Assembly (NCBI GenBank): GCA_003223555.1
Contig: QHVM01000086.1
Span: 68,596 to 107,674 of the forward strand
Length of the DNA: 39,079 nt
Origin: Acidobacteriota bacterium
Lineage (GTDB): Bacteria; Acidobacteriota; Vicinamibacteria; Fen-336
Direction: 5' to 3'
The first letter of the stretch is position 1. Every line of letters begins with the position of its first letter. A program made the translations under genes and the position numbers. Positions 1 through 18,723 of this stretch are shown piece after piece. The notes under the pieces are model-generated. The model saw nothing but the letters and a program-made list of their open reading frames with translations, was not told the origin of the DNA and searched no databases.

Positions 1-3000
1 CTTGGCCAGCTCCCGGGTGCACGCTTCTCCCGCGGAGACGATCACGCGGAGGTCCGGGTAGGGCGCTTCCGGCAGGGCGGCCAGCGTGGAGGGGGGCAGC
101 GTGACGTGGGTGATGCGCTTGTCGATGAGCGTGGACGCGAGTCCCTCCCCGGCCCGGGAGGTCTCCTCCGTGGACAGCACGAGCCGGGCGCCGCTGCCCA
201 GCGACATCGCGATCTCCCAGGCCGAAGCGTCGAAGGAGAGCGAGGCGAACTGGAGCACCGCGCTCTCCGGCCCCAGGTCGAAGACCTGCTGCTGGACGGC
301 GGCGATGTTCGCCAGCCCGCGGTGCTCCAGCATCGCGCCCTTGGGCCGGCCCGTGGACCCGGAAGTGTAGATGACGTAGGCGAGGGAGCCGGGGGCCGGA
401 GGCGCGAGCGCCGGCGGATCGCCGCGGCTCGGGATCTCCTGGTCGAGCCAGACGGTGCGCCCGGCAAAGGCCGGCCGGGCCTCGACCGCGCGCACCGAGA
501 GCAGGAACGCCGCCTGGGAGTCCTCGAGCATGTGGTCGATCCGCGCCCGGGGATACTCGGGGTCGACCGGGACGTACGCGCCGCCCGCCTCCCACACGGC
601 GAGCACCGCCACGACGAGGTCGACCGACCTCGGGAGCGAGATGGCCACCCGCGTCTCCGGGCCCACGCCGAGCCCGGCCAGGTGGCGCGCCAGCCGGCTC
701 GCGCGCCGGCCCAGCTCGCCGTAGCTGAGCCTGACGTCGCCGCACTCGAGCGCGGTCGCGTCCGGATCACGCGCGACGTGGGCGTCGAACATCTCGATCA
801 CCGAGCGGGCGGCCTCCGGCGCGGCCGGACCGGCGGACCAACGGGCGAGCTGCGCGGCTTCGTCCTTGTCGACCACGGCCAGCTCGGGCAGGCGGCGATC
901 CGGGTGGTCGACCGCGTCGCGGAGAAGGACCGGGAGGTGCCGGGCCATCCGCTCGATGCGATCCCGGTCGAACAGCTCCGCGCTGTACTCGAGGAGCGCG
1001 ACCAGTCCGTCGGCGGTCTCCTGCATCGAGAGCGTGAGGTCGAACTTGGCGGTGACGCTGTCGAGCTCGAGCAGCTCCACGCTCAGGCCGTCGAGGGCGG
1101 GCGGGGAGAAGGGCGCGTTCTGGAGGACGAACATTGCCTGCACCAGCGGCTGGCGGTTGAGGCTGCGCTCGGGTCCGAGCGCCTCCACCAGCTTCTCGAA
1201 CGGCACGTCCTGCTCGGTATAGGCGTCGAGCGTCGTCCGCCGGACGCGCCCGAGCAGCTCGAGGAAGCTGGGATCGCCGGCCAGGTCCAGCCGGAGCGCA
1301 AGGGTGTTGACGAAGAGACCGATCAGCGGCTCGGTGGCGGCGCGGTTCCGGTTGGCCACCGCGGATCCCAGCACCAGGTCCTTCTGGCCGGAGAGGCGCG
1401 AGAGGTATGCCGAGAAGCCGGCCAGCAGCGTCATGTAGAGCGTGACGCCCTCGCGGCGGCTGAGCTCCTTGAGGCGCGCGGTCAGCCCCCGATCGACGGC
1501 GAACCGCACGAGGCCGCCCTTGAAGGAGGGCGCGGCCGGGCGAGGCCGATCGGCCGGCAGATCGAGCGAGGCCGGGGCGCCGGCCAGGCGGTCGGCGCAG
1601 GCGCGGATGGGCGCGGCGAGCGCGCCCTCCGCCAGGAGCTGCCGCTGCCAGATCGCGAAGTCCGCGTACTGGATCGGGAGCGCGGGCAGCACCGGCTCGC
1701 GCTGCGAGCGCAGCGCGTTGTAGCTGGCCGCGAGCTCGCGGGCGAAAACCCCCACGGACCAGCCGTCGGAGACGATGTGGTGCAGCGTCACCACCAGCAC
1801 GTGGTCGCCGTCCGCGATGCGGAGGAGGCGCGTGCGAAGGAGGGGGCCGCGAGCGAGGTCGAAGGGGCGGGAGACCTCCAGGCCCGCCTGCCGCTGGATC
1901 AGCTTCAGCAGATCCTCGTCGGTCGCCGCCGCCGGATGCACGAGGTCCTCGGGGGGCGGGAGGTCGATCGGCAGGTCCTCGGCGATCGACTGGACCGGCT
2001 GGTCTCCGCCGCTCGGAAAGCTGGTGCGCAGGGCCTCGTGGCGCCGGACGACGAGGTCCACGCTCTTGCGGAGCGCGTCCTGGTGGAGCGGGCCGCGCAG
2101 CCGGAGGACGAGCGGGATCACGTAGATCGGGGCGCGCGTCTCCTCGATGCGATCGAGGATCCACATCCTCTCCTGGGCCGAGGAGAGCGGGAGCGGGTCC
2201 TTCCGCTCCATGGGCGCCGTCAGGTCGCGGACGGCGGCCCCGGAGTGGGCGCGGAGCTGCTGCACCGCGGCGCCGAGCGCCCCCACCGTCGGGGCGTCGA
2301 AGAACGTGCGGAGGGGGAGATCGACGCCGAACACCGCGCGGATCCTCGACACCACCTGGGTGGCCAGGAGCGAGTGCCCGCCGAGGTCGAAGAAGCTCTC
2401 GTGAACGCCGACCCGCTCCGCGCCGAGCAGCTCGGCGAAGATGCTGGCCAGGATCTCCTCCTCGCCGGTCCGGGGATCCACGTAGGCGACGTCCATGTCG
2501 TGGGGAGCGGCGGGGATCGGGAGCGCGCGCCGGTCCACCTTGCCGTTGGCGGTCAGGGGGACCTTGTCGACGACCATGATGCTCGCCGGCACCATGTAGT
2601 CGGGGAGGCGCTCCTGCGCCCGCCGGCGGAGGTCGCTCTCCATCCGGCGCTCGAGCCGGCCGCGGAGCGGATCGTTCGCCCGCCGGTGCGAACGGCGCTC
2701 CGGCATCGCGCCGAAGAGCGCGACCGGCCCCGCCGGGAGGGCGGGAGCCGGCGGCCGGGGGCCCGCGCCGGGCGCCTGCGGCCGGGTGAAGACCGCGTCG
2801 AAGGAGCCGTCCGCGCCGCCGCGCGACCAATCGATCGCCACCTCGAGCGACAGCGCCTCCCCGAGCTGGTGGAGGGCCTCGGGATCGAGCCCGGGCTCCG
2901 GGTCGCTGACCGGGGACGAGCCGTCCCGATCGAGCACCCGCTTGCGGAGCGTCTCGAGGAAGCCGACCTGCGCCACGTCCTGATCGTGCAGCAGCGCCGC

Positions 3001-6000
3001 GGCCTCGATCGCGGCCTGGACGCGCGCGTTCCGGATGCCGCGGAGCCCGATGCGGCGGGCGCCTTCCGGGCCGAGACGAGCCCGCAGCTCGAGGAGGCTG
3101 AGGGTCCCGGGGCCCCATACCACGTCGGGCGCCGGCTGCGGCGGCGCGTCGAGGTGGAGGAGCACGTCGTAGCGGAAGCGGGTCAGCTCGTTCTTCGAGG
3201 CGCCCCGCTTCGGACGGACCTCGACGTGGGTGAGCCGCGGGATGCGCTGCCGCAGGGACCAGAAGAAGTCCGGATCGAGGACCAGCTCCTCCTCGCCGGC
3301 CATGCGGCGGGCGACGCGCTCCTTGAGCGCCCGGGGCTCGATCGTGCCCGAGCTCTGGGCGAGCAGGATCGAGGCATGGAACGCCTCCAGGAGCCGCAGG
3401 TTACGGATGTCGCCGACGAACATGAACCCGCCCGGGCTCACCCGCGCGGCGGCGGACGCCAGCACCCGGGCCAGGTACTCCGCGCTCGGGAAGTACTGGG
3501 CCACCGAGTTCAAGATCACCGCGTCGAAGCGCTGCCCGTCGAAGGGCATGGCGTCGAGCTGGTCCGCGGCGGCATGGAAGAGCCTCGCGTGGGCGAGTCC
3601 CGGGGTCCGTGAGGCGACCTTCCGGACCATGTCGACGACGACGCCCGAGACGTCCGTCCCCCAGTAGGCGGTCGTGGAGGGCGCGATGCGGGTGAGGAGC
3701 AGGCCGGTGCCGCATCCGATCTCGAGCACGCGCGACGGCGCCCGCTCGAGGACCTGCCGCACCGTGTGGTCGACCCACTCCTTCATCGCCTCCGCGCTCA
3801 GCGGAGCGCCGCTGTAGCTGCTGTTCCAGCCCGCGATGTTGAAGGCCGGGTCGGTCTCGGGCGCGTCCGCCGACTGCGCGTAGAGCTGGTCGTAGAGGTC
3901 CGTCCACTCCCCGATGTGCGTCTCGCCGATCCCCCCGCTCCCGCCGCCCGCCGCGCAGGAGAGGACCAGGTCCGACGCGCCTTCCTTGGGCACGACGTAG
4001 GCGACGATCCGCTTGTCGTCCTCGCTCCGCTCGTAGGTCGTCACGTAGGCTTCGGCCACCGCGGGGTGCTCCGCGATGAGCGCCTGGATCTCGCCCAGCT
4101 CGATGCGGAAGCCCCGGATCTTCACCTGGTCGTCGATGCGGCCGAGGTAGCTGTAGCCGCCGTCCGGCAGGCGGATCGCCAGGTCGCCGGAGCGATAGAG
4201 CCTCCGCCCGGGGGCGGCCGGATCGGGGATGAAGCGCTGGGCGGTCAGCTCGGGGCGCTTCAGGTAGCCCCTCGCGACGCCGGCCCCCCCGACGTACATC
4301 TCGCCCGGGACCCCGACCGGGACCGGCTGCCCGTGCTCGTCGAGCAGGCGCAGCTCGAGGTCCGGGATCGGGCGGCCGATCGGGCTCGCCGACGACGTCA
4401 GGTCCGCCTCGGTCACCCGGTGATAGGTGACGTGCACGGTCGTCTCGGTGATGCCGTACATGTTGACCAGGCGGGTGTCCGCGTCCGGATAGCGCTCGAA
4501 CCACGGGCGGACGGTCGCCGCGTCGAGCGCTTCGCCGCCGAAGATGATCCACCGGAGGCTCCGTCCGCCGGCCCCGTCCGCGATGGGGGGCGCGCGGAGG
4601 AGCGCGCGGAAGGCGGAGGGCGTCTGGTTCAGGACCGTCACCCGTTCGCGCGCGATCAGGTCGCCGAACGCGTCGGGCGACCGCGTCATCCAGTGGGGGA
4701 CCACGACCAGGCGTCCGCCGTAGAACAGCGGACCCCACAGCTCCCAGACCGAGAAGTCGAACGCCGCGGAGTGGAACAGCGTCCAGACGTCGCTCGGCCC
4801 GAAGTCGTAGAGGGGAGCCTCGGTGGTGGTGAACAGGCGCGTGGCGTTGTGGTGGGTGACGATCACGCCCTTCGGGCGCCCGGTGGAGCCGGACGTGTAG
4901 ATCACGTACGCGGCGTTGGCGGGCCCGAGGTCGGGGGCGGGGTTCGGCCCGCGCTCGGTTTCCTGCCACCGGAGCGCGTCCACGTAGATCGTGGGCACCA
5001 CGTCGGTGGGCAGCTCGCCCTTGCGCCGGGTCTCGGTCACCAGCGCGGAGACCTCGGCGTCCTCCAGGATGAGGGCCAGCCGCTCGCGGGGGGTCGCCGG
5101 GTCGAGCGGGACGTACGCTCCCCCCGCCTTGAGCACGCCCAGGATCGCGATCACCAGCTCCGCGCTGCGCTCGACGCAGACCCCCACCAGCGACTCGGGT
5201 CCGACCCCCCGGCTCCGCAGCTCGTGGCCGACGACGTTCGCGCGGGCGTTCAGCTCGGCGTAGCTCAGGTGCGCCTCGCCGAAGGTCAGCGCGACCGCGT
5301 CCGGGCTGCGCTCGACCTGCTTCTCGAACCAGGCGGTGATCGTGGTCCCGGCCTCCGCCGGCCCGGCCGTGGTCGGCGCGCGCACCTCCACCGGCTCCGC
5401 GAGGGCGAGGCCGGCGACCCTTTCGTCGGGCGCGCGCACCATCTCGGTGAGGAGCTTCTCGAGGTAGCCTCGCCACCGCCGCACCGTGGCGTCGTCGAAG
5501 AGATCGCGGTTGAATCGCAACGCGCCGGCGAAGGCGCCGCGCGCTTCCCACATCTCGAGCGTGAGATCGAACTGGCCTTCCTGGTCCTTGAGGGGGTAGG
5601 GCTCCAGCTCGACGTGGCCCCAGCGGATGCGGGCGTCCTCGTCGGGGGTGGCCCACAGGTCCATGGCCCCCCCGCCCTCGCGGGAGGACTGGAAGGTCAT
5701 GGAGGCCTGGAAGACCGGCGACAGTCCGGGGCGGCGGGGGACCTCGAGCCGCTCGACGAGGGATGCGAACGGAAAGTCCTGGTGCGAGAGCGCCTCGAAG
5801 ACCGTCTCGCGCATCCGCGCGACGAGGGTCCGCGTGGAGGGTGCCCCGGAGAGGTCCGCGCGCAGGGCGACGGGGTTCGCGAAGTAGCCCACCACGTCGT
5901 GCATTGCGGCGCCCGAGCGCCCGGTGGTGGGCGAGCCGATCAGGAGGTCGTCCTGCCTCGCGAGACGCCCGAGGAGCGCGGCGTACGCCGAGAGGAGCAC

Positions 6001-6840
6001 CACGAACGGCGTGGCTTGCTCGGCCTGGGCGAGGGCCTTGACGGCGCCCGTCAGCCCGGCATCGAGCTTGACGGGGACGGCTCCGCTCCGGTTCTCGGCC
6101 AGCGCCGAACGGCTTCGATCGGCGGGCAGGGAGAGCAGCGGCAACTCGCCCGAGAGCTTCCTCTGCCAGTAGTCCCAGTGCGCTCGCCCCGCCGGGCTCA
6201 CCAGCAGCTCGTTCTGCCGCGCGACGAAATCGGGGTAGCTGCCGGTGACCGGCGGCAGCGACGGTGCCGCCCCCTTCGACAGCGCCATGTAGAGCTGGCT
6301 CAGCTCCCGCTGGAGGATCCCCGCCGACCACCCGTCGTAGACGATGTGATGGGCCGTGATCAGCAGGACGTGGTCGTCCAGCCCCGCGGTGAAAAGGTCG
6401 CCCCGGAGCAGCGGACCGCGCTCGAGTGAGAACGGCCGGCGGTAGGCGCGGACCACCGCGGCGTGGAGCTGTTCCTCGCTCCAGCCCTTCGCGTCGGCGT
6501 GGGCGAAGTGCGGCTCCAGGGCGGGATGGACCGTCTGGAGGAGCTGCCCGTCGGCGGTGGTGGAGAACGTGGTCCGCAGGCTCGGGTGGCGGGCGGCGAC
6601 CATCTCGAACGCCCGCTTGAGCGCCCCGGCGTCGACCTCGGAGCGGATGCGGAGAGCGAACGGGGTGTTGTACGCGGCCCCCTCGGGATCCTGCTGGTGG
6701 AGCAGCCAGAGCGCCTTCTGCCCCGAGGTGAGAGGGAAGATGCGGGGTGCACCCTGGCCGGACCTGGCGAGGAGCTCGGCGAGCAGCCGGCGCTTCTCGT
6801 CGGGCGAGAGGCCGGCCAGGTCGGTGGGGAGAGAGGTCAG
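1..6840 (-). CDS. Non-ribosomal peptide synthetase, C-A-NMT-PCP-C-A..., partial (C-terminus off the left edge)
   Basis: Visible 2280 codons, open to the window edge. Domains: short N-terminal linker (1-30); condensation domain with HHIVYDG at 164-170; adenylation domain with TSGSTGRPKG at 649-658; an N-methyltransferase inserted after A8, with SAM motif VLEIGCGTG at 1038-1046; A10 with NGK (Lys1434); carrier domain with LGGHSLL (Ser1490); second condensation domain with HHIVSDG at 1687-1693; second adenylation domain with TSGSTG at 2159, cut after core A4. The first specificity code, read by eye against GrsA, is D695 F696 W699 N738 I766 G768 M794 V802 H803 K1434, the known threonine code, so N-methyl-threonine is the likely unit. 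The second reads D-A-W-T-V-A as far as visible, Phe-like. The first ATG is Met80, inside the C domain, and no ATG, GTG or TTG occurs in frame before it for over 200 nt. I place the start at CTG 6840-6838, overlapping the PKS stop as CTGA. No thioesterase is visible. Confidence 0.95.
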   Translation of the reverse strand, partial: MTSLPTDLAGLSPDEKRRLLAELLARSGQGAPRIFPLTSGQKALWLLHQQDPEGAAYNTPFALRIRSEVDAGALKRAFEMVAARHPSLRTTFSTTADGQLLQTVHPALEPHFAHADAKGWSEEQLHAAVVRAYRRPFSLERGPLLRGDLFTAGLDDHVLLITAHHIVYDGWSAGILQRELSQLYMALSKGAAPSLPPVTGSYPDFVARQNELLVSPAGRAHWDYWQRKLSGELPLLSLPADRSRSALAENRSGAVPVKLDAGLTGAVKALAQAEQATPFVVLLSAYAALLGRLARQDDLLIGSPTTGRSGAAMHDVVGYFANPVALRADLSGAPSTRTLVARMRETVFEALSHQDFPFASLVERLEVPRRPGLSPVFQASMTFQSSREGGGAMDLWATPDEDARIRWGHVELEPYPLKDQEGQFDLTLEMWEARGAFAGALRFNRDLFDDATVRRWRGYLEKLLTEMVRAPDERVAGLALAEPVEVRAPTTAGPAEAGTTITAWFEKQVERSPDAVALTFGEAHLSYAELNARANVVGHELRSRGVGPESLVGVCVERSAELVIAILGVLKAGGAYVPLDPATPRERLALILEDAEVSALVTETRRKGELPTDVVPTIYVDALRWQETERGPNPAPDLGPANAAYVIYTSGSTGRPKGVIVTHHNATRLFTTTEAPLYDFGPSDVWTLFHSAAFDFSVWELWGPLFYGGRLVVVPHWMTRSPDAFGDLIARERVTVLNQTPSAFRALLRAPPIADGAGGRSLRWIIFGGEALDAATVRPWFERYPDADTRLVNMYGITETTVHVTYHRVTEADLTSSASPIGRPIPDLELRLLDEHGQPVPVGVPGEMYVGGAGVARGYLKRPELTAQRFIPDPAAPGRRLYRSGDLAIRLPDGGYSYLGRIDDQVKIRGFRIELGEIQALIAEHPAVAEAYVTTYERSEDDKRIVAYVVPKEGASDLVLSCAAGGGSGGIGETHIGEWTDLYDQLYAQSADAPETDPAFNIAGWNSSYSGAPLSAEAMKEWVDHTVRQVLERAPSRVLEIGCGTGLLLTRIAPSTTAYWGTDVSGVVVDMVRKVASRTPGLAHARLFHAAADQLDAMPFDGQRFDAVILNSVAQYFPSAEYLARVLASAAARVSPGGFMFVGDIRNLRLLEAFHASILLAQSSGTIEPRALKERVARRMAGEEELVLDPDFFWSLRQRIPRLTHVEVRPKRGASKNELTRFRYDVLLHLDAPPQPAPDVVWGPGTLSLLELRARLGPEGARRIGLRGIRNARVQAAIEAAALLHDQDVAQVGFLETLRKRVLDRDGSSPVSDPEPGLDPEALHQLGEALSLEVAIDWSRGGADGSFDAVFTRPQAPGAGPRPPAPALPAGPVALFGAMPERRSHRRANDPLRGRLERRMESDLRRRAQERLPDYMVPASIMVVDKVPLTANGKVDRRALPIPAAPHDMDVAYVDPRTGEEEILASIFAELLGAERVGVHESFFDLGGHSLLATQVVSRIRAVFGVDLPLRTFFDAPTVGALGAAVQQLRAHSGAAVRDLTAPMERKDPLPLSSAQERMWILDRIEETRAPIYVIPLVLRLRGPLHQDALRKSVDLVVRRHEALRTSFPSGGDQPVQSIAEDLPIDLPPPEDLVHPAAATDEDLLKLIQRQAGLEVSRPFDLARGPLLRTRLLRIADGDHVLVVTLHHIVSDGWSVGVFARELAASYNALRSQREPVLPALPIQYADFAIWQRQLLAEGALAAPIRACADRLAGAPASLDLPADRPRPAAPSFKGGLVRFAVDRGLTARLKELSRREGVTLYMTLLAGFSAYLSRLSGQKDLVLGSAVANRNRAATEPLIGLFVNTLALRLDLAGDPSFLELLGRVRRTTLDAYTEQDVPFEKLVEALGPERSLNRQPLVQAMFVLQNAPFSPPALDGLSVELLELDSVTAKFDLTLSMQETADGLVALLEYSAELFDRDRIERMARHLPVLLRDAVDHPDRRLPELAVVDKDEAAQLARWSAGPAAPEAARSVIEMFDAHVARDPDATALECGDVRLSYGELGRRASRLARHLAGLGVGPETRVAISLPRSVDLVVAVLAVWEAGGAYVPVDPEYPRARIDHMLEDSQAAFLLSVRAVEARPAFAGRTVWLDQEIPSRGDPPALAPPAPGSLAYVIYTSGSTGRPKGAMLEHRGLANIAAVQQQVFDLGPESAVLQFASLSFDASAWEIAMSLGSGARLVLSTEETSRAGEGLASTLIDKRITHVTLPPSTLAALPEAPYPDLRVIVSAGEACTRELAK

Positions 6841-9800
6841 GGCGCCGCCTCCTTCGGCGCCTTCTCGGCCTCGAGCATGGCGCGGAGGATCGAGTCCACC
6901 TCGCTCTCGGACAGGTTGCTCACCTGCCGCTCGATCTGGGCCTTGGCGGTGTCGGCCGCCGGCGCCGGGGCCGCCGCGGCCCCGCCCTCGAGCCTCGTCG
7001 ACAAGCTCAGCGCAACCTGGACCAGGCTTCCCGCGCGGAGGAGGTCCAGGGCCGGGATCTCGACCCCGAGCGCCTCGCGGATGGTGCCCTGGACCTGCAT
7101 CGACAGGAGCGAGTCCACGCCGAGCGCGGACAGCGATTTCTCGGGATCCACGCGCTCGAGCGGGAGCTGGAGGATGTGGGCCAGGCGCTCCGAGAGGAAG
7201 CGGGCGATCTCGCCCTGCCTGGCCTCGGGGGCGAGGCTCGACAAGTGATGGCGGAGCTGCTCCGCCTCGCTCCTGGCCGCGCCCGCGTCGTCGCCGACGA
7301 GGTGGGCGGTCCGGGGAGACCGGCCGAGGTGAGGCGCCGCCCGCCCGAGCGTGGGCCAGGCGACGTCCATGATCCCGATCTCATGCGTCCGGACCCGGAG
7401 CACCCGCCCGAGCGCCGCCAGCGCGGAGGCGGGCGGCATCGCCCGGAGGCCGAGCGACTCGAGATAGGCGCGCACCGACTGGTCCCCCGCCATCCCGATC
7501 TCTCCGAGCACACCCCAGTGGATGCTCGTTCCGGCCAGCCCGAGGGCGGCGCGGTGCTCCGCGAGCGCGTCGAGGAACGCGTTGGCGGCGACGTAGTTGC
7601 CCTGCCGCGGGTTTCCGATCAGCGCCGAGACCGAGGAGAAGAGGACGAAGAAGTCGAGCGGCCGGTCCCTGGTGAGGACGTGGAGGACCCACGCGCCGCC
7701 CGCCTTGGGGGCCATGACCCGCCGGATCCGGTCGAGGTCGAGATCGGCCAGCGGCGCGTCCTCGAGCACCGCCGCGGTGTGGAACACGCCCCGGAGGGGA
7801 GCATGCTCGCGGTCGATCCGCGCGAGCACGGCGCCCATGTCGTCCTCGTTGCTGACGTCCGCCGCCACCGCGATGACGCGCGCACCCGCCGCTTCCAGCT
7901 CCCCGACCAGCTCCCTGGCTTCCGGGGTGGAGGCGCCCTTCCGTCCGGTGAGAACCAGGTGCCGCGCGCCCTCCGCGACCATCCAGCGGGCGAGGGCGAG
8001 GCCGAAGCCGCCGAAGCCGCCGGTGACGAGATACGTCGCGTTCGCGTCGAACAGGCGCTCGTCCGCCGCCGGCGCGAGCGAAGCCGGCTCGCTGCCCGCG
8101 AAGGCGAGCGTGAGGCGGGCGATGCCGTCCTGCCGCGCGCGCTCGGAAAGCCAGCGCAGCCCGTCGGTCGCGCGAGCGGCCGGGAGACCGTCCGCGGGCA
8201 GCTCGGGGAGGCGCTCGAAGCGCTCCAGGACGGCCTGGAGCCGCGCGACCGCCTCCTGGGGACGCTGCTGCAGCAGGGCCGCGACGTCGACCCGCGAGCA
8301 GGATGCGCCCCGCGACCAGGCGGCGGCGAAGAGGCCCTCCACGGGCGCCAGCGGGCCGGCGTCGACGAAGCGGCCGAACGGCCCGAGGACGCCGGCGATG
8401 GTGGGCTCCGGATCGAGCGACGCGTTCACCAGCACGTCGACGCCGCCCCCGCCGGCCCACTCCATGATCTCCTCGGCCAGGGCGGGAGACCGCCGGTCGA
8501 ACGCGCGGATGCCGTCGGGCGCCGCGTCGACCGCCGGATCGAGGACGGCCGCGACCTGCGCGCCGGCCGCGCGTCCCACCTCGATCGTGGCCAGGCCGAT
8601 CCCGCCGGCATTCCCGAGCACCAGGAGCCGCTCCGAGCCGAGGATCCGGCCGTGCGCGTGGAGCGCGCACTCGGCGGCCAGGAACGGGAGCAAGCGACCG
8701 TGGGACGCCCCGGCCATCACGAGGTCGCGTCCGAGGCGAAGGATCACATGGGTGCCGATCGCCACCGGCGCTCGTCCGAGCAGCGCGTGCACGGGCTGGC
8801 CGGCTGCGTATCCCGCGACGTCCTCGCCGAGCGAGGCGATCACGCCCCCCAGCTCGACCGGCCAGGGTGCGGCGGTGGAGCGCCGGCCTCGAGTCGCGGT
8901 CCCGCGGGTCAGCGTGGCGCGGTCGACCTCGACCTCGATCTCGCCGCGTCCGGGCGGACGTCGCGACGCGCGCCGGGGCCGCCGCTCGGAGCCGTCGAGG
9001 GCAACCTCGAAGTACCGGCGGGCCTCCTTCGTCGCCGCCGCGGCGGAGGCCGCTTCGGACTGCTCCTCCCACGCCGGGATCGGCTTGGCGCGCAGGCGGC
9101 GGACGAGCCTGCGCTGGCCGCGGAGCGCGACCTCGTCCTCGGCGCTGCCGGAGAGCAGCTCGCGCGCGAGGCGCTCGACGGTCGCCGCCTCGGAGGGGGA
9201 CGCGTCCCGGGGCAGGTCGATGGTGCGCGTCCGGAGATGGGGCAGCTCGGCGGGCACCACCCGCGCCAGGCCGATCAGCGGCGACGCGGACAGCGATGAC
9301 ACCGTGTCGCCCGGGACGGCGCGCTCGGCGTCGCGGGTCACGACGTAGATCGAAGCGTCTCCACCTGGCGCCATGGCCGTGACCACGCGCAGGAGCGCGT
9401 GGGTGTCGTCCGAGCCGACGCGGTCGCTCGAGCCCGCCTCCCGCAGCCCGAAGAGGTACGCGACGCTCGCGAACCGCGAGCGGTCGAGCGCGGCGAACAG
9501 GCGGGCGGCGTCGTCGGCGCTGCCGGGCCGGACCCGGAAGCTCGTCTTCGACTCCTGGACGAACGAGTCGCCGCGGGTCACCTGGGCCAGGTGCTGCACG
9601 CCCGAACGCTGGAGCGCACGGGCCAGCTCGGCCCCGATCCCGCCCTCGTCGGCGAACAGCACCCAGCCGCCGGGCGTCGTGGCCGGACCTGGAGGCGCCT
9701 CGTCGGGCGGCGCGTCCTCGAACACATGCTCGTAGGTCCAGTCGTAGAAGGCCGGCCTCGGGGACGTCTCCTCGTGATCGGCGAGCGCGGCGCACTCGAC

Positions 9801-12800
9801 GCCGGTGAGCCGGGCGACCACCCGGCCGCCGGTGTCGATGAGCGCGATCTCGCCCTCCACCGCGTTATCCATGCGCTTCCGGATCTGGGCATGGCAGAAG
9901 AGCGCCTCGCGAGGATCGAGCTGCCCCGAGAACCGCACGCTCCGGCAGCCCATCGGGAGGTAGAGCCGCTGGTCGTTCTCGGGGAGGAGCGCCACCAGCG
10001 CCTGCAGGCAGGGATCCAGCCAGACCGGATCCAGGCTGAGGCTGCCGTCGGCGGCGACTCGCGCCGCCTCGGACTCCGGCAGCGTGATCCCGGCCAACAG
10101 CTCGCTGTCACCCCGCAGCAGCCAGCGGACGCCGCGGAGCCGCGGGCCGTAGTCGAGGCCGCGGTCGCGGAGCATCGCGTACAGCGTTTCGGTGTCGAAC
10201 CAGGTCGCCGCGCGCGCGTCGAGATCACCGAGCCGGACGTACTCCTCGGGCGGCGCGAGCAGGCTCCGGCGGATGCGGGCGGTGGCGTGCCGGGTCCAGG
10301 AGGTGCGGGCGTCGCGCGGACGGCTGTAGATCGCCACCGTCTGGGTGGCCTCGTCGTAGGTGGTGCGGACGACCGGCTCGTCGCTGCCCGAGACCACGAG
10401 CGCGTTCTCGAAGCGGACATCCTCGAGCATATGCGGCTCGGCGAGGTCGAGCGCGCGCCGCACCGCGAGGGCCATCTCGATGTACGTGACGCCGGGCACG
10501 ACCAGCGAGCCGCGGACCCGGTGATCCTGGAGGCAGGGCAGGAACTGCGCGTTGAGCCCGCGCTCCCAGGTCGGCATGGGGGCCGAGATCTTCGGCCCGA
10601 GCAGGGTGTGCTCGTTCGGGCCCCGGCGGTCGGTGAGCGCCTCCTCGGACTCCTGCCAGTGCTTCTCGCGCTGCCAGGGATAGCTGGGGAGCGGCGTGAA
10701 GCGGCAGCCCTCGGGATAGAGACGCGGCCAGGCGATGCGGACGCCGGCGACGTACAGCTCGGCCAGGGCCTTGGCGAAGGTCTTTCGCTCGGGCTCCTGC
10801 CGCTTGAGCGAGAAGACGGTGCGGGCCTCGACGCGCGCCTCCGCGCAGCACTCCGTGATCGAGGCCGAAAGGACCGGGTGGGGGCCGAGCTCGAGGAAGA
10901 GGCGGTGCCCGTCCTTCAGGAGCTGGCCGACCGCCTTCGCGAACAGGGTGGGCTCGCGGATGTTGTCGCACCAGTACTCGGCGTCATACGACACGCCCTC
11001 GACGCGCCCGCCCAGAACCGTGGAGTACGTGGGGAGGTTCCCCGCCGACGGCCGGAGCGAGGCCAGACACCGGCGCAACTCCGGCTTGAGGGCGTCCATG
11101 GCCGGGCTGTGATAGGGCACCTCGACCTTCAGGACGCGGTTGAAGGTGCCGCGCGCCTCCAGCTCGGCCGCGATCGCCTCGATCGCCGGCGCTGTGCCGG
11201 ACAGGGTCAGCGCGGTCGGTCCGTTGATGGCGGCGATCGAAACGGAGTCCTCCCGCCCGCGGATCACCGCGCGGGCGCCCTCCTCCGACAGGCCCACCGC
11301 CAGCATCTTGCCGAGTCCCGCCGCCTTGGCCTGGATCCGGCTCCGCTCGTAGATCGCGAGCACGGCCTGCTCGAGGTCGAAGCGCCCCGCGGCGAAGGCC
11401 GCCGCCACCTCTCCGGCGCTGTGGCCGATCACCGCCGCCGGCTCGATGCCCGCGCGCCGCCACAGCTCGAGCAGGCCGAGCTGGACGAACATGTTCGCGG
11501 GCTGGGCGATGTCGGTGCGCGCCATGCGGGAGGACTTCTCGTCGGGGACGAGCATCTGGGCGAGGAGCGACCAGCCGGCGAGGTGCTGGAAGGCGGCGTC
11601 GCAGCGATCGAGCGTGGAGCGGAAGAGCGCGTCCTGCTCGTACAGCTCGCGGCCCATGGCCCACCACTGGGGCCCCATCCCGGTGAACACGAAGACCGGG
11701 CGCGGCGCGGGGCCCTGGAGGGTCCGGCCGGACGCGCCGCCTTCCGCGGGATTCCGGGCGGCGAACGACGCCAGCCTTGCCGCGAGGTCGGCGGCGTCCT
11801 CGGTGGCCACGAGGGCGAGCCGGTGCTCGTGATGGCTGCGCCGGGTGGCCGCGGAGAAGCAGACGTCCGCGAGCGGCGCCCGGTTCGGCGCGCCGAGGAG
11901 GTCGGCGTAGGACTGCGCGAGCGCGCGGAGGGCTTCGGGGCTCCGGGCCGAGACTGGGAGGAGCGCCGGCTCGGTCAGCTCCGGCGTACCCGGGCGGGGT
12001 GCGGCCGGCGGGGCCTGCTCGATGAGGCAGTGGGCGTTGGTGCCGCCGTAGCCGAACGAGTTGACGCCCATCCGGAGAGGCTCGTCCCTCCTGGGCGTGA
12101 GTGCTTCGACCTTCCGGGGAATGCGCAGCCCGAGAGAGTCGAACGGGATGCGCGGGTTGGCCTGCTGCAGGTTGGCTTGCGGGGGAAGCTGCCGGTGCTG
12201 GAGGCACAGGCTGGCCTTGATGAGCCCGGCCACGCCGGCGGCCGCCTCGAGGTGACCGATGTTGGCCTTGAGCGAGCCGACCCAGGGGCCGGGGCCGTCG
12301 CGCCGCTTCGACACGTTGCCGAGCCCGCTCATCTCCGCGGGGTCTCCGACCGCGGTCCCCGTCCCGTGGGCCTCGAACGCGTGGATCTCCGCCGGGTCCA
12401 CCGAAGCGCTGGCACACACGCGGCGGATCAGGGCTTCCTGGGCTTGCGAGCTGGGCGCCGTCATGGACTCGGTCCGTCCGTCCTGGTTGACGCCGGTGCC
12501 GCGGATGAGCGCGTAGATGCGGTCCTGGTCGCGCCGCGCATCGGCGAGCCGCTTCAACACCACGAGGGCCGCGCCTTCACCGCGTCCGTAGCCGTCGGCG
12601 CGCGCGTCGAATCCCTTCGAGTAGCCGTCGGCGGACAGGAACTTGCCCTTGCTCATCGCGACGAAGATCTCGGGCCGGAACATGACGTTCACGCCGCCCG
12701 CCAGGGCGAGCGAGGTCTCGCCGCTCCATAGGTCCTGGCAGGCGAGGTGGACCGCCACCAGCGAGGACGAGCATGCGGTGTCGAGCGAGATGCTGGGACC

Positions 12801-13340
12801 GCGGAAGTCGAGCATGAAGGACAGCCGGTTGGAGAGCACCGTCATCGTGGCGCCGACCGCGGTGTGGGGGCCGATCAGGTCGCGGTTCATCGGCCCCATG
12901 TGCGTGAGCATGCTGTCGAGCATGAACCCGCCGACGTACACGCCGGTCGGGCTGCCGGCAAGGTCGTCCGGAGGAAGGCCGGCGTCCTCCAGGCCCTCCC
13001 AGGCCACCTCGGCCAGGAGTCGCTGCTGCGGATCGAGCACCGCGGCCTCCCGCGGCGAGATGCCGAAGAACGCCGCGTCGAAGGCGTCGATCGCCTCCTC
13101 GAGGAACCCGGCGGCGCGGACGTACGTCTTGCCCGGCTTGCTCGGGTCCGGATCGTAGTAGCGGCGGTGGTCCCAGCGGTCGCGCGGGACCTCGACGATC
13201 GCGCAGCGTCCCTGGGTGAGGAAGTCCCAGAGGCGGCGCGGCGAGCTGGCGCCGCCTGGGAAGCGGCAGCCGATGCCGATGACTGCGATGGGGTCGCGCA
13301 AGGTGCCGGGCAAGACGCCCTCAGAGTGGCTGGTGCTCAT
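6837..13340 (-). CDS. Type I polyketide synthase, one module: KS-AT-DH-ER-KR-ACP
   Basis: 2167 aa. KS at about 17-440 with DTACSSSL (Cys190), His325 in EAHGTGT and His363 in NIGHLE, so it is an active-type condensing KS. AT at about 545-835 with GHSAGE (Ser641); the specificity position reads VPYH (741-744), neither HAFH nor YASH. DH at about 910-1190 with His940 in the DHRVRGSLVVPG stretch and Asp1109 in WLDPCLQ. A KR structural half follows at about 1220-1400. ER at about 1440-1740 has a shortened front and a nucleotide motif GNAGGIG (1576-1582). KR at about 1765-1950 has TGGFGGFG, Ser1903, Tyr1916 and Asn1920, and LED at 1859-1861 (B-type-like). ACP has GVDSL (Ser2077). There is no loading module and no thioesterase. 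The ATG has GAGG 6 nt upstream. The chain should pass to the NRPS condensation domain encoded immediately downstream. Confidence 0.97.
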   Translation of the reverse strand: MSTSHSEGVLPGTLRDPIAVIGIGCRFPGGASSPRRLWDFLTQGRCAIVEVPRDRWDHRRYYDPDPSKPGKTYVRAAGFLEEAIDAFDAAFFGISPREAAVLDPQQRLLAEVAWEGLEDAGLPPDDLAGSPTGVYVGGFMLDSMLTHMGPMNRDLIGPHTAVGATMTVLSNRLSFMLDFRGPSISLDTACSSSLVAVHLACQDLWSGETSLALAGGVNVMFRPEIFVAMSKGKFLSADGYSKGFDARADGYGRGEGAALVVLKRLADARRDQDRIYALIRGTGVNQDGRTESMTAPSSQAQEALIRRVCASASVDPAEIHAFEAHGTGTAVGDPAEMSGLGNVSKRRDGPGPWVGSLKANIGHLEAAAGVAGLIKASLCLQHRQLPPQANLQQANPRIPFDSLGLRIPRKVEALTPRRDEPLRMGVNSFGYGGTNAHCLIEQAPPAAPRPGTPELTEPALLPVSARSPEALRALAQSYADLLGAPNRAPLADVCFSAATRRSHHEHRLALVATEDAADLAARLASFAARNPAEGGASGRTLQGPAPRPVFVFTGMGPQWWAMGRELYEQDALFRSTLDRCDAAFQHLAGWSLLAQMLVPDEKSSRMARTDIAQPANMFVQLGLLELWRRAGIEPAAVIGHSAGEVAAAFAAGRFDLEQAVLAIYERSRIQAKAAGLGKMLAVGLSEEGARAVIRGREDSVSIAAINGPTALTLSGTAPAIEAIAAELEARGTFNRVLKVEVPYHSPAMDALKPELRRCLASLRPSAGNLPTYSTVLGGRVEGVSYDAEYWCDNIREPTLFAKAVGQLLKDGHRLFLELGPHPVLSASITECCAEARVEARTVFSLKRQEPERKTFAKALAELYVAGVRIAWPRLYPEGCRFTPLPSYPWQREKHWQESEEALTDRRGPNEHTLLGPKISAPMPTWERGLNAQFLPCLQDHRVRGSLVVPGVTYIEMALAVRRALDLAEPHMLEDVRFENALVVSGSDEPVVRTTYDEATQTVAIYSRPRDARTSWTRHATARIRRSLLAPPEEYVRLGDLDARAATWFDTETLYAMLRDRGLDYGPRLRGVRWLLRGDSELLAGITLPESEAARVAADGSLSLDPVWLDPCLQALVALLPENDQRLYLPMGCRSVRFSGQLDPREALFCHAQIRKRMDNAVEGEIALIDTGGRVVARLTGVECAALADHEETSPRPAFYDWTYEHVFEDAPPDEAPPGPATTPGGWVLFADEGGIGAELARALQRSGVQHLAQVTRGDSFVQESKTSFRVRPGSADDAARLFAALDRSRFASVAYLFGLREAGSSDRVGSDDTHALLRVVTAMAPGGDASIYVVTRDAERAVPGDTVSSLSASPLIGLARVVPAELPHLRTRTIDLPRDASPSEAATVERLARELLSGSAEDEVALRGQRRLVRRLRAKPIPAWEEQSEAASAAAATKEARRYFEVALDGSERRPRRASRRPPGRGEIEVEVDRATLTRGTATRGRRSTAAPWPVELGGVIASLGEDVAGYAAGQPVHALLGRAPVAIGTHVILRLGRDLVMAGASHGRLLPFLAAECALHAHGRILGSERLLVLGNAGGIGLATIEVGRAAGAQVAAVLDPAVDAAPDGIRAFDRRSPALAEEIMEWAGGGGVDVLVNASLDPEPTIAGVLGPFGRFVDAGPLAPVEGLFAAAWSRGASCSRVDVAALLQQRPQEAVARLQAVLERFERLPELPADGLPAARATDGLRWLSERARQDGIARLTLAFAGSEPASLAPAADERLFDANATYLVTGGFGGFGLALARWMVAEGARHLVLTGRKGASTPEARELVGELEAAGARVIAVAADVSNEDDMGAVLARIDREHAPLRGVFHTAAVLEDAPLADLDLDRIRRVMAPKAGGAWVLHVLTRDRPLDFFVLFSSVSALIGNPRQGNYVAANAFLDALAEHRAALGLAGTSIHWGVLGEIGMAGDQSVRAYLESLGLRAMPPASALAALGRVLRVRTHEIGIMDVAWPTLGRAAPHLGRSPRTAHLVGDDAGAARSEAEQLRHHLSSLAPEARQGEIARFLSERLAHILQLPLERVDPEKSLSALGVDSLLSMQVQGTIREALGVEIPALDLLRAGSLVQVALSLSTRLEGGAAAAPAPAADTAKAQIERQVSNLSESEVDSILRAMLEAEKAPKEAAP
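6848..6854 (-). promoter_or_regulatory. Shine-Dalgarno AAGGAGG deciding the CTG start of the NRPS
   Basis: On the minus strand AAGGAGG is followed by a 7-nt spacer and then CTG, whose last two bases open the PKS stop codon TGA. The site lies inside the last codons of the PKS. Other genes here use ATGA or GTGA overlaps (yjjX-like/tdk, the Lol-like operon, pilT/recX), so CTGA fits the same layout with a rarer start codon. Confidence 0.6.
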
Positions 13341-13553: not shown

Positions 13554-14927
13554 TCAGGGGGAGGCCAGCTCCGTCTCGATCGAGAAGACTCCCTCCAGCG
13601 TCGTCAGGACGAGGCGCAGGCGCCCGGCGTCGCCGTGGACCGCGAAGGCCCCGTCCTCGGTGAAGCCCAGCTCGCTGAAGCTCCGGTCTCCGGTCGCGGA
13701 CTCCGGCTGCCGCGCCATCGCAGCCGCGTCACGCACGTCGCAGATCGTCCGTGCGGTCCTGCGCTCGAGCACGGCCCCATCCAGCGTGCCGGCCGTCTTG
13801 CCGTCGCGCCACAGCAGCAAGCGCACGCGGCCATGCTCCCCCGCGCCGCGCACCACGATCTGGTAGGCGCCAGGCGAGAGCGCGTCCCCGGCGGCGGTCC
13901 GGGCCGGGCGATCCAGGGCGAGACGCTCGAGCAGCTCGCCGTGAAGGATCGCCTCGGTGGGGGAGCTCGATTCGGCCTGCGGGCCGGGCTGTCCCAGCTC
14001 GGTTCCGATCGAGAAGCCTCCGGCGCGCACGCCGGTCAGTCCTCGCGTCTTCGTCCAGGTGCCGGACGGGCCGATGTCATCGGGCCGTACGCACAGGGTC
14101 TGCTCTTCCCCGCCCTCCATGTGCACCACGTCGGGCGACTTGTTGGCCAGGCGCAACGGCAGGGCCTCCCGCAGCGCCTCGACGCCAGTGACCGTGATCG
14201 TGACGGTCGTGTGCTGGCCGGACAGCAGGTTCGTGGTGGGGGCGGAGAGGCGCACGCCCACGTTGCGGTAGGTGCCGCGGGCGACCACCTGGCCCCGCTC
14301 GCTGACCTCCATCGGGGCCGGCCCCACCTCCTCCTGCGGGCCGCGCACGACGAGCTGGCGCGGGGACTCCGCCATGGGTTGAGCCGGCTTCCCCCCGATC
14401 TTCACGCTCGAGTCGGAAAGGTCGCCGTCGAAGGCGCCGGTGATGCGCACCGGCCCACCGCTCTGGCCGAGCGCCGGCAGCCGGTAGCTCGGCGGCGGAA
14501 GGGCGGCCGCGCCGAGCGGAGCGTTCACTTCGCCGGCCGGCCGTCCCCGAGGGTCGAAGAGCACGACGGCGAGCCGGGGGGCGCCCGCGGGCACGGTGAA
14601 CGTCCGCACGGGCTGACTCGCCGGCGCCCGCTGTCCGTCCAGCTCCACCAGGTAGCTGTTCAGCTCCCGGCGCTGTCGGGCCTGGTCGCGCTCGCCGGCC
14701 GCCGCCGGCACCGGGTTCACCGTCGCGCTGGCCGTGTCGCCGGGCAGGAGGTCATCTGGCAGGTTGACGTAGATGCTTCCGGCGGGCATGCGGAAGGTAG
14801 CGATGTGGACCCCCGGCACCGATTCAAGGGATCCTGCACCCGGGTCCGCGGGGGCGACGGCGGTCCCTCCGGCGAGCAGCGTCGCCATTCCCATCGCGAG
14901 TGATGGGCTTCTCCGATCGACGCGCAT
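13554..14927 (-). CDS. Secreted protein of unknown function with TIG-like Ig-fold segments
   Basis: 457 aa. The N-terminus MRVDRRSPSLAMGMATLLAG has basic residues followed by a hydrophobic stretch and a small-residue cleavage region near 25-30, so export is likely. No catalytic motif is apparent. Segments near 155-210 (pattern G-F-D-G-D-L ... V-K-I-G-G-K-P-A ... Q-L-V-V) look like an IPT/TIG immunoglobulin-like fold, and a second beta-rich part (about 225-330) contains a VTVTGVEAL-type strand series. It precedes the PKS in the same orientation with a 213-nt gap, so a link to the biosynthetic locus is possible but not shown. The ATG at 14927 has only a weak AGGA upstream. Confidence 0.75.
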   Translation of the reverse strand: MRVDRRSPSLAMGMATLLAGGTAVAPADPGAGSLESVPGVHIATFRMPAGSIYVNLPDDLLPGDTASATVNPVPAAAGERDQARQRRELNSYLVELDGQRAPASQPVRTFTVPAGAPRLAVVLFDPRGRPAGEVNAPLGAAALPPPSYRLPALGQSGGPVRITGAFDGDLSDSSVKIGGKPAQPMAESPRQLVVRGPQEEVGPAPMEVSERGQVVARGTYRNVGVRLSAPTTNLLSGQHTTVTITVTGVEALREALPLRLANKSPDVVHMEGGEEQTLCVRPDDIGPSGTWTKTRGLTGVRAGGFSIGTELGQPGPQAESSSPTEAILHGELLERLALDRPARTAAGDALSPGAYQIVVRGAGEHGRVRLLLWRDGKTAGTLDGAVLERRTARTICDVRDAAAMARQPESATGDRSFSELGFTEDGAFAVHGDAGRLRLVLTTLEGVFSIETELASP

Positions 14928-15028: not shown

Positions 15029-16034
15029 ATGACATCGAACATCTTCTTCCTGTTCCTGCCCGCCTCGATGCTCTTCGGCGCCTCCGCCGGGCCGGCGGTT
15101 GCGTATGACGATCCGGTCGCGAGCAAGAGCGCGGCCTACTCGGTGCGGTCGCTGCCGCTGCCCGGTGCCGGCGACGACGGCATCTCGATGGACTACGTCG
15201 CGTTCGACCCCCACACCGGCTTCGTGTGGGTCCCCGCCGGCAACACCGGTGCGGTCGACGTGGTGGACACCGCCAGCGGCAAGGTGACCCAGCTCTCCGG
15301 CTTCCCGACCGCGGAGGTGGAGGCGCGGGGCCGCAAGCGCGTCGTCGGCCCCAGCTCCGTGACCATTGGCGACGGGGTCGTCTTCGTCGGCAACCGGGGC
15401 GATTCGTCGGTCTGCGCGGTGGACGCCCGCTCGCTCAAGAAGGGGACGTGCGGACGTCTCGACTCGATGCCCGACGGCATCGCCTACGTCGCGGCGACGA
15501 AGGAGGTCTGGGTCACGACGCCCCGCGACCGGTCGGTCCGTGTCCTCGACGCGGCCACCCTGGCCCAGAAGGCCAGGCTCGCCCTCGACGGCCAGCCGGA
15601 AGGTTTCGCGGTCGACGCCCGGCGGTCACGGTTCTACACGAACCTCGAGGACAAGGACCGCACGCTGGCCATCGACCTGGCGAGCCGGCGGACGGTCGCG
15701 ACCTGGAACCCATCGTGCGGGGAGCTGCGACGCGCGCGCGGAGGTGCTCGACGCCGGACACGGCGGTGCGGTGCTGTCCTCGGTGGACACCGGCGACGGC
15801 GTCGACGACATCGCCTACGCGCCCTCGACCCGCCAGCTCTACGTCGGCGCGGCCCGGGCCGCCCGGCTCACCGTCGCCCGGGTCGACGACGCCGGCAAGC
15901 TGACCGTGGCGGCCCAGGTGCCGACCCGGGAGGGGGCTCGCAACGGGGTCGTGGCGAGCGATGGCACGGTGTACCTGGCGCATTCCGGGGCCGTGAAGCT
16001 GAACGAGCTGGTCGTGGTGGCGCCCCGGAAGTGA
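15029..16034 (+). pseudogene. YncE/NHL-type beta-propeller secreted protein, internally deleted and frameshifted
   Basis: The ATG at 15029 opens a signal peptide (MTSNIFFLFLPASMLFGASA, cleavage after AVA) and propeller-blade repeats of the YncE/SMP-30-like kind: G-F-V-W-V-P, V-D-V-V-D, V-F-V-G-N-R-G-D and so on. Coding sense is good up to the N-P-S-C-G-E residues near 15721. It then resumes in another frame from about 15735 (C-D-A-R-A-E-V-L-D-A-G) to the TAG at 16034. By blade periodicity about 20 residues seem to be missing at the junction, as well as the frame change. Both halves otherwise look intact, so the lesion is either recent or an assembly or sequencing error. The rhomboid gene follows after 18 nt. 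Confidence 0.7.
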
Positions 16035-16052
16035 TCTCCCGCGGCGAGACGC

Positions 16053-16776: not shown

Positions 16777-18723
16777 CTACGCGTCCGGGGCCGGCGGCCC
16801 GCCGTCGACGCGCCGGAGGATGCCGATCACGCGGAACGCCCACAGCGTCCGGCAGACCTCGAAGTCGCCGAGCTTCGACGCCTGGCAGATGCTGGCGACG
16901 TCGCGCTCGCCCCCGAGGTCGCCGACGATCAGGAGCTTCTCCGGGGTGAGGGTCATCTCCTTGAGCCGCTCCTGGTAGTCGTCGGCGCGGATGTAGTGGG
17001 CCCGCGGACCTCCGACCCCCCGCTCGATCCGTCCCCACGCCTGGATCCGGCCGATCCCCTCCATGATGATGTCCGCCGTGCTGAGCTTCAGCGTGATGCT
17101 CTCGGCGTCGCGGCTCGGGCCCTCCTTCAACTGGTAGAAACCCTCGGTCCACTGGAAGACGCTGTAGATCACCTCGCGGGTGTGATCGACGACGACCTTC
17201 ACCAGCTCCTTGGGCTCCAGCGCCCCCTGCTCGACCAGGATGGTGCCGAGCCGCTTGCCCTTCCGGATCGCCTTGCTCGCCTCGTAGTACTGCTGGAGGG
17301 TGATCCGCTCGCGGCGCAGGAGCAGCTCGCCCAGACGCTCGTCCTTGTTCGTGGAGGAGGCGAAGACCAGGCGCCCGCCGTTGACCTGGACGGTCGTGTC
17401 GATGCGTCCCCGATGCAGGTCCACCGTGCCCGTCCAGCGCTGCACCGAGAGGGCGTGGATGAGGTCCGGGAAGTCGTACTCGGCCAGGCTGCCCGTGGAA
17501 GGCAGCTCTTCGGCGGCGACCGACGGCGCCGGGGCCGTCCCCGCGGGCGCGGCGCCGGCCGCCGGGGACGCAGGCCTGGCCGGTGGGGCGACGGCCGGGA
17601 AGGCCGCTGGCGGACCGGGGGCGGGCGGCTCGACCGGCGGCGGTCCGGCAGGCAGGGGCGCGGCGTCGGGGACGTTCAAGGCCGGTGAGTCGCTGAGCAG
17701 CGTCGAGAGGTCCGGCACGCCTATCGGACCTCGCTTCTTCGGCTTCGGGCGTGGCGGCGCCGGGGGTTCCGGCGGCAGCCGCGGCATGTCGGCAAAGACG
17801 GGCACGAAAGCCGGGGCGGGATTCTCGGCAGGAGGATGCGGCGGCGCCGGCGGCTCCGGAAGCGCCTCCGATGCGGGCTGAGGCGGCGCCTCGGGAGCGC
17901 CCTCCAGGGAAGCGGAGTGGCGGGGGACTTCATACGGCGCGGCCAGCTCCCAGTGCTCCTCCGCCGCGACGAGCGGAATGGGTGGCAGCTCCTCGGGCGA
18001 TACGCTCCGCCCCGGCTGGCGACTGTCCTCCTCGGCGGCCTCCGCCGGCTGGGGTGCGCTGGCGGCGAAGGCCACCGGCGCCGCAGCCGAGACCTCGGAC
18101 GGCCGTTCGGCCGACGTGCCCTCCGGGTCCGCCAGGCGCGTCTGGCACTCCTCCAGGAACCGGCGGGCCAGCAGGTTGTCCGGCGCGCCTTGCAGCACCG
18201 CCTCGAACTCGGTCCGGGCCGCGCCGAGGTCGCCGCTGTCGAGCAGCGCGCGCCCGAGCGTCATGCGCGCCGAGGGATACAGGGGATGCTTCTGCAGGCC
18301 GTCACGGCAGATGCGGATCGACTCTTCGAGCTCGCCCTCCTTGCGCAGCTCTTCGGCGAGCTGCGCGAAGAGACGCGAAGCGGGATCCTTCTCGAGCCGC
18401 CGGCGAAGGTCTTCGATCCGGGGATTGACGGCCGGCGCCGCCGGCGCGCCCGGGGCGTCCGCCGCCACCGATCGCGCGCTCAGCATCGGTGGCCGCTCCA
18501 TGATGAGCGTGGCTCGGGGCGACTTGCCGGGGGGCAGCGGCGGCGGCAGTTGCTCGGCGATCTCCGGGATGCGGTCGGCCGACATCCACTCCCGGAGGCC
18601 CTGGTGCCAGACGAGGGCGGTCTGCGGGAGCTGGCCGCCCAGAAGAAGGCCCACGAGCTGCTCGAAGTCCACTGGACCGAGCCGCTTGTCGTCCTTGACG
18701 TAGAACCACAGCGTCCCCGCCAT
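16777..18723 (-). CDS. GYF_2 - TPR - DUF4388 (PATAN) domain protein
   Basis: 648 aa. An N-terminal GYF_2-like domain (about 1-55, W-F-Y-V-K-D-D-K-R-L-G-P-V-D ... W-H-Q-G-L-R-E-W) is followed by a TPR-like helical region (about 95-190). A long Pro/Ala-rich linker (190-425) leads to a DUF4388 domain (about 430-530: L-I-H-A-L-S-V-Q-R-W-T-G-T-V-D-L). A further helical C-terminal part contains R-L-G-T-I-L-V-E-Q-G, a motif shared with type IV pilus/GspE N-terminal-like modules. Proteins of this build are common in Myxococcota, Rokubacteria and relatives and are thought to act in signalling or gliding/pilus control; the function here is inferred only. GGAGGG lies 5 nt before the ATG. It diverges from the acylphosphatase gene. 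Confidence 0.85.
   Translation of the reverse strand: MAGTLWFYVKDDKRLGPVDFEQLVGLLLGGQLPQTALVWHQGLREWMSADRIPEIAEQLPPPLPPGKSPRATLIMERPPMLSARSVAADAPGAPAAPAVNPRIEDLRRRLEKDPASRLFAQLAEELRKEGELEESIRICRDGLQKHPLYPSARMTLGRALLDSGDLGAARTEFEAVLQGAPDNLLARRFLEECQTRLADPEGTSAERPSEVSAAAPVAFAASAPQPAEAAEEDSRQPGRSVSPEELPPIPLVAAEEHWELAAPYEVPRHSASLEGAPEAPPQPASEALPEPPAPPHPPAENPAPAFVPVFADMPRLPPEPPAPPRPKPKKRGPIGVPDLSTLLSDSPALNVPDAAPLPAGPPPVEPPAPGPPAAFPAVAPPARPASPAAGAAPAGTAPAPSVAAEELPSTGSLAEYDFPDLIHALSVQRWTGTVDLHRGRIDTTVQVNGGRLVFASSTNKDERLGELLLRRERITLQQYYEASKAIRKGKRLGTILVEQGALEPKELVKVVVDHTREVIYSVFQWTEGFYQLKEGPSRDAESITLKLSTADIIMEGIGRIQAWGRIERGVGGPRAHYIRADDYQERLKEMTLTPEKLLIVGDLGGERDVASICQASKLGDFEVCRTLWAFRVIGILRRVDGGPPAPDA

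Follow-up and report, generated by a model that had tools for sequence, protein, structure and literature searches.

The window analysed here, a stretch of 39,079 nucleotides, corresponds to bases 68,596-107,674 of contig C146 (107,674 bp in total) of an Acidobacteriota assembly. Its minus strand carries a PKS gene resembling mchA of the myxochromide (mch) family, followed by an mchB-like NRPS gene (NRPS1) that the left edge cuts within the second A domain, leaving C-A-MT-T-C-A inside the window (Table 1). The original prediction was of a hybrid PKS-NRPS cluster, with the PKS handing over to the NRPS, that runs past this edge. Both points are borne out, as the domains are recovered by Pfam with their catalytic motifs intact, and C146, which extends 68.6 kb leftward from the window, holds the remaining cluster genes, namely the T-E end of NRPS1 and a second NRPS (NRPS2). 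In full, NRPS1 occupies C146:66280-75435 (minus strand), encodes about 3051 aa and has the order C-A-MT-T-C-A-T-E, its E domain (C146:66364-67671) being called from the motifs HHLVVDG, EGHGRE and RTVGWFT in the translation. NRPS2 (C146:49659-66245, 5528 aa) comprises five C-A-T modules and a thioesterase (PF00975).

Table 1. Genes, domains and pocket codes of the cluster. Positions are those of the window; modules 3 to 7 belong to NRPS2, to the left of it.
Feature	Position	Strand	Basis or remark
PKS gene, mchA-like, 2167 aa, KS-AT-DH-(degenerate ER)-KR-ACP	6837..13340	minus	Pfam; 71-75% full-length identity to 11 Myxococcia mch PKSs
KS domain, DTACSSS and HGTGT	12021..13295	minus	Pfam, motifs
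AT domain, GHSAG; VPYH specificity motif same as in Myxococcia mch PKSs	10737..11696	minus	Pfam, motifs
DH domain, HRVRGSLVVP and LDPCLQ intact	9768..10610	minus	Pfam, motifs
ER-like region, truncated and degenerate, presumed inactive	8241..8993	minus	No Pfam ER match; motif comparison
KR domain, Rossmann motif, S-Y-N, LED (B-type signature)	7506..8039	minus	Pfam, motifs
ACP, GVDSL	7011..7196	minus	Pfam, motifs
NRPS1 gene, mchB-like, window part	1..6840	minus	70-73% identity over residues 1/3-3049 to 11 Myxococcia genes directly after PKS
C domain 1, predicted to take the polyketide chain	5386..6741	minus	PF00668 at C146:73981-75336
A domain 1 (module 1), code DFWNIGMVHK, Thr	4042..5265	minus	TIGR01733, code; same code in 11/11 relatives
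Methyltransferase core inserted after A8 (N-methyltransferase position), SAM motif VLEIGCGTG	3403..3762	minus	PF08242/PF13649, motif
Module 1 carrier domain, GGHSL	2266..2451	minus	PF00550
C domain 2	847..2196	minus	PF00668 at C146:69442-70791
A domain 2 (module 2), window part, code DAWTVAGICK, Phe-like	1..765	minus	8/10 as in GrsA-Phe DAWTIAAICK; T and E domains follow left of window
Module 3, code DAWFLGNIVK, Leu			
Module 4, code DAWFHAAVCK, residue without assignment			
Module 5, code DVQFIAHVVK, Pro			
Module 6, code DAWTIAGICK, Phe-like			
Module 7, code DAWQCGLIDK, Gln			

The catalytic motifs of KS, AT, DH, KR and ACP are each intact in the PKS. The region between DH and KR resembles an ER yet lies beyond the reach of any Pfam ER model: its N-terminal catalytic stretch is missing and its nucleotide motif is altered. 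The identical pattern occurs in all 11 mch PKSs of Myxococcia that were compared in full, and the outgroup PKSs L033 and L038 retain the stretch that the mch PKSs lack. Because the ER is truncated and degenerate as in those relatives, reduction by this module most likely stops at double bonds, as judged from sequence. The single PKS module and the shared ER lesion are consistent with a predicted iterative action yielding a conjugated polyene. The gene immediately upstream of the PKS, likewise on the minus strand (window 13554-14927), encodes a probable secreted protein of 457 aa, for which neither a Pfam family above threshold nor a counterpart near the Myxococcia mch clusters was found. Beyond it, the frame of a beta-propeller (YncE-like) gene at 15030-16050 (plus strand) seems to shift near 15700, judged by eye from two frames, so that it is either a broken gene or an assembly error; the ORF at 15226-15903 within this region is without a Pfam match.

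The probable start of NRPS1 is a CTG at 6840 that overlaps the stop codon of the PKS (CTGA), where 11 of 11 Myxococcia relatives show ATGA. The ATG at 6603 picked by the ORF caller was rejected because the N-terminal sequence conserved in these relatives starts at about 6840. The CTGA at 6837-6840 reflects either an uncommon start codon or one wrongly assembled base. At the other end of the cluster, a gene for a DUF2269 membrane protein overlaps the end of NRPS2 by ATGA, an arrangement found here and in all 11 Myxococcia clusters; a seemingly conserved ORF on the plus strand (C146:48898-49872) was discarded as the antisense shadow of this gene. Beyond the DUF2269 gene lies one for an Sfp/AcpT-type PPTase (C146:48072-48821), with best matches of 48% in Sorangium and in a genome of the same family (G006); the surroundings of the Myxococcia mch clusters yielded no PPTase gene.

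Residues were called solely from the 10-residue pocket codes. The amino-acid names follow the known code tables, and pocket positions were located by the numbering of the GrsA-PheA sequence; PDB entry 1AMU is a strong sequence match. The first NRPS unit reads as N-methyl-Thr, as originally proposed, with a Thr code in its A domain and a methyltransferase following A8. The Phe-like reading of the second unit also holds on the extended contig; inside the window its code is partly visible, residues from 322 on lying outside. Support for calling Thr, Leu, Pro and Gln comes from mch clusters, which have identical or nearly identical codes at the corresponding positions. The two Phe-like A domains were also examined for gene conversion, which was rejected, as sliding identity showed no raised stretch over the pocket; each is closest to its own positional orthologue, so neither was copied onto the other.

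The relatives of this assembly line were sought in two ways. A PKS scan across 84,980 genomes, which used exact peptide patterns and is non-exhaustive in that it missed the clusters of four Myxococcia genomes (G509-G512), returned four Myxococcus-type records with 71-73% full-length identity to the PKS, one of them labelled Comamonas, and all others at 50% or below. The record so labelled (Comamonas sp. KCTC 72670, BNCN01000004.1) carries an mch cluster of the A type, and genome search places its genome of 9.0 Mb in the same class as Myxococcus; it is probably a mislabelled Myxococcus. A search of Myxococcia with the DH-ER part of the PKS, which is less universal than KS, found a close PKS in 13 of 147 genomes (60-68% identity on that part), and picked up several clusters that the scan had missed; 11 of the 13 clusters were examined in full. 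Against these 11, identity is 71-75% for the PKS and 70-73% for NRPS1, both over the full length, and 57-65% for the aligned part of NRPS2. Every C and A domain, the extra module excepted, is nearest to its positional counterpart in the mch clusters. The layout is likewise that of mch: one PKS lies upstream of two NRPS genes in identical order and strand, the first NRPS has the order C-A-MT-T-C-A-T-E with the Thr code first, and the second ends in a Gln module (DAWQCGLIDK) and thioesterase. The megasynthases are thus orthologous to those of mch clusters, the next-nearest PKSs in the genome scan reaching 50% identity at most.

The B-type myxochromide line of a Myxococcus sp. (mchA-C) is given in a review table as (C-A-MT-PCP)(C-A-PCP-E)(C-A-PCP)x4(C-A-PCP-TE), seven modules for the peptide Thr-Ala/Pro-Leu-Leu-Pro-Ala/Phe-Gln (PMC9581180, Table 2). 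Compared with this published layout, rather than with B-type sequence, the Acidobacteriota cluster is equal in module count and domain order, with an extra module, the fourth of its seven, between Leu and Pro, and its positions 1, 3, 5 and 7 carry the codes of Thr, Leu, Pro and Gln. It differs in the phylum of its host, in being Phe-like at positions 2 and 6, and in carrying DAWFHAAVCK at position 4, where the B-type has Leu. The codes at positions 2, 4 and 6 are unlike the Ala/Pro- and Leu-type codes of the mch clusters examined; the published B-type allows Phe at position 6. A-type clusters of Myxococcus (G022, G024, G534, G544 and G545) share the gene order and the downstream DUF2269 gene, with 71-73% identity in the PKS, about 70% in NRPS1 and about 65% in NRPS2, but have six modules rather than seven and carry DVWVIAAVIK and DVWV[TA]AAIIK at two variable positions. 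The nearest relatives in PKS (73-75%) and NRPS1 (73%) are the clusters of G509-G512, whose protein sizes suggest the S and D types; they differ in a four-module second NRPS, in other position 2 codes, and in a third-module A domain without the usual A3 motif.

The claim that the core matches no compound that could be named therefore does not stand, given the B-type domain order and the 70-75% identity of PKS and NRPS1 to mch genes of Myxococcia. By the standard set beforehand, a described cluster sharing both domain order and codes would tell against novelty: the domain order is found and four of seven codes are matched, while positions 2, 4 and 6 differ, and with this the claim of a new family falls. 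The cluster is, by its sequence, a relative of the myxochromide assembly line, and its predicted product is not a known myxochromide, because NRPS2 shares only 57-65% identity and the mch clusters examined lack three of its seven codes. What is new here is the phylum of the host, module 4, and the altered codes of the pockets at positions 2 and 6. A search of the open-access literature found no paper naming both Acidobacteriota and myxochromide.

The A domain of module 4 shares 62-64% identity with the A domains of Leu modules, and its C domain 66% with that of the Pro module, a pattern that duplication of an A-T-C block would be expected to leave. In the A-domain tree, the Leu A domains of the two lineages group to the exclusion of the module 4 domain (95/94), so that such a duplication would predate the split of the lineages. 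In AU tests of a recent duplication within this cluster, joining its Leu and module 4 A domains was only narrowly rejected (p 0.045), and the C domain of module 4 did not discriminate (p 0.38). We regard it as a tentative and rather doubtful possibility that the seven-module form is ancestral, with the A-T-C duplication preceding the split and the A, C and S types shortened by loss; the Acidobacteriota copy would then be an old aromatic-rich myxochromide line with no known cultured maker.

The host assembly measures 5.39 Mb, is 98% complete with a contamination estimate of 1%, and, at 151 contigs, is not the genome of a cultured type species, as had been anticipated. Since a search of the assembly found no 16S, the host was placed by rpoB. 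The identity of its rpoB fragment is 76-78% with Bryobacterales and Sulfopaludibacter as against about 59% with Myxococcus, and in the rpoB tree the assembly clusters with Acidobacteriota (group support 86/93, some values in the tree being moderate). To the right of the cluster, the region from the DUF4388 gene (16777-18723) to the end of the contig is syntenic with a genome of the same genus (G001) and with other family members. The synteny with same-genus contigs extends over more than 16 kb, mostly at 66-98% identity, and for the S49 peptidase encoded here identity is 83% within the genus and 40-44% with Myxococcus. To the left, all matches of the gene at C146:44941-46761 fall within Acidobacteriota, the best of them in its own family, and the Myxococcia searched gave none. 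Both flanks of the cluster are native to the host. The GC content and codon usage of the cluster are near host values, its codon usage distance being 0.26 to native host genes as against 0.47-0.89 to Myxococcia mch genes. A search for viral contigs found none, and plasmid carriage was rejected, the best plasmid matches being only about 30% identical. A further large NRPS cluster, comprising 11 condensation-type domains, occurs in a genome of the same family (G009:C13:74910-106607); by PKS search it is unrelated to the present one.

To our knowledge, all described myxochromide producers are myxobacteria. The mch cluster described here has a different host, as rpoB and both flanks are those of Acidobacteriota; this is a difference in distribution and not in a mechanistic feature. 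The cluster was absent from the other 192 genomes examined of the host class (1 of 193) and from 396 genomes sampled across the phylum, where the best match was 30-35% identical, which makes transfer between phyla the best explanation. Vertical descent would not give a PKS 72% identical to those of Myxococcia alongside an rpoB at 59%. Our preferred reading, at a probability of roughly 0.85, is that an Acidobacteriota chromosome acquired a complete myxochromide-type cluster horizontally, and that the cluster diverged in this host or in some intermediate not yet sampled. In the mch PKS tree, the Acidobacteriota PKS forms the sister branch to the 11 Myxococcia PKSs as a whole and is not nested among them (97/97). 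The sampled Myxococcia may therefore not be the donor, which would be an unsampled lineage; like the donor, the direction of transfer is an inference.

The same sister position would suit a reverse or older transfer, in which Acidobacteriota or a third lineage was the source and myxobacteria were the recipients. An unsampled myxobacterial donor fits it equally, however, and with the cluster in 13 of 147 Myxococcia genomes as against 1 of 193 in the host class we consider a transfer in this direction improbable. Still less probable is it that C146 is mis-binned or chimaeric and that the cluster came from a myxobacterium with no transfer at all. The assembly is fragmented, with its 151 contigs and estimated 1% contamination, and the near relatives of the cluster are all myxobacterial, with none in the rest of the class; against this, a chimaera would require two joins given the native flanks, the codon usage is closer to the host than to that of each of the 11 clusters from Myxococcia, and known clusters come no nearer than about 75%. 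That this is an unrelated PKS-NRPS family, like myxochromide only in common domain types, would suit the codes at positions 2 and 6 and of module 4, which occur in no mch cluster examined, but is refuted by the in-order, domain-by-domain orthology, the ER lesion in common and the full-length identity of 70-75% in PKS and NRPS1, and the downstream DUF2269 gene is shared as well.

The single PKS module would iterate with its KR and DH, lacking a working ER, to give a conjugated polyene acyl chain, which the first C domain would transfer onto N-methyl-threonine. Six further modules would then add D-(Phe-like), Leu, a residue without assignment, Pro, Phe-like and Gln, the residue at position 2 being epimerised by the E domain of NRPS1. 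The terminal thioesterase probably releases the chain by cyclisation, linking the carboxyl of Gln to the hydroxyl of Thr in the manner of the myxochromide family. The resulting product would be a cyclic depsiheptapeptide with a polyene tail, predicted as the polyenoyl heptapeptide N-Me-Thr/D-(Phe-like)/Leu/X/Pro/(Phe-like)/Gln, in which residues 2, 4 and 6 are putative.

If this reading is right, a myxobacterial lipopeptide assembly line of roughly 33 kb crossed a phylum boundary intact and was then retuned, and the cluster would offer a natural experiment in NRPS module gain and pocket change. The PPTase gene adjoining the cluster may have aided its function in the new host, and a specific new congener would be predicted from an Acidobacteriota lineage. 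Myxochromides had no reported antibacterial activity in the tests done (PMC9581180), and a second, unrelated host would be a useful comparison for their ecological role.
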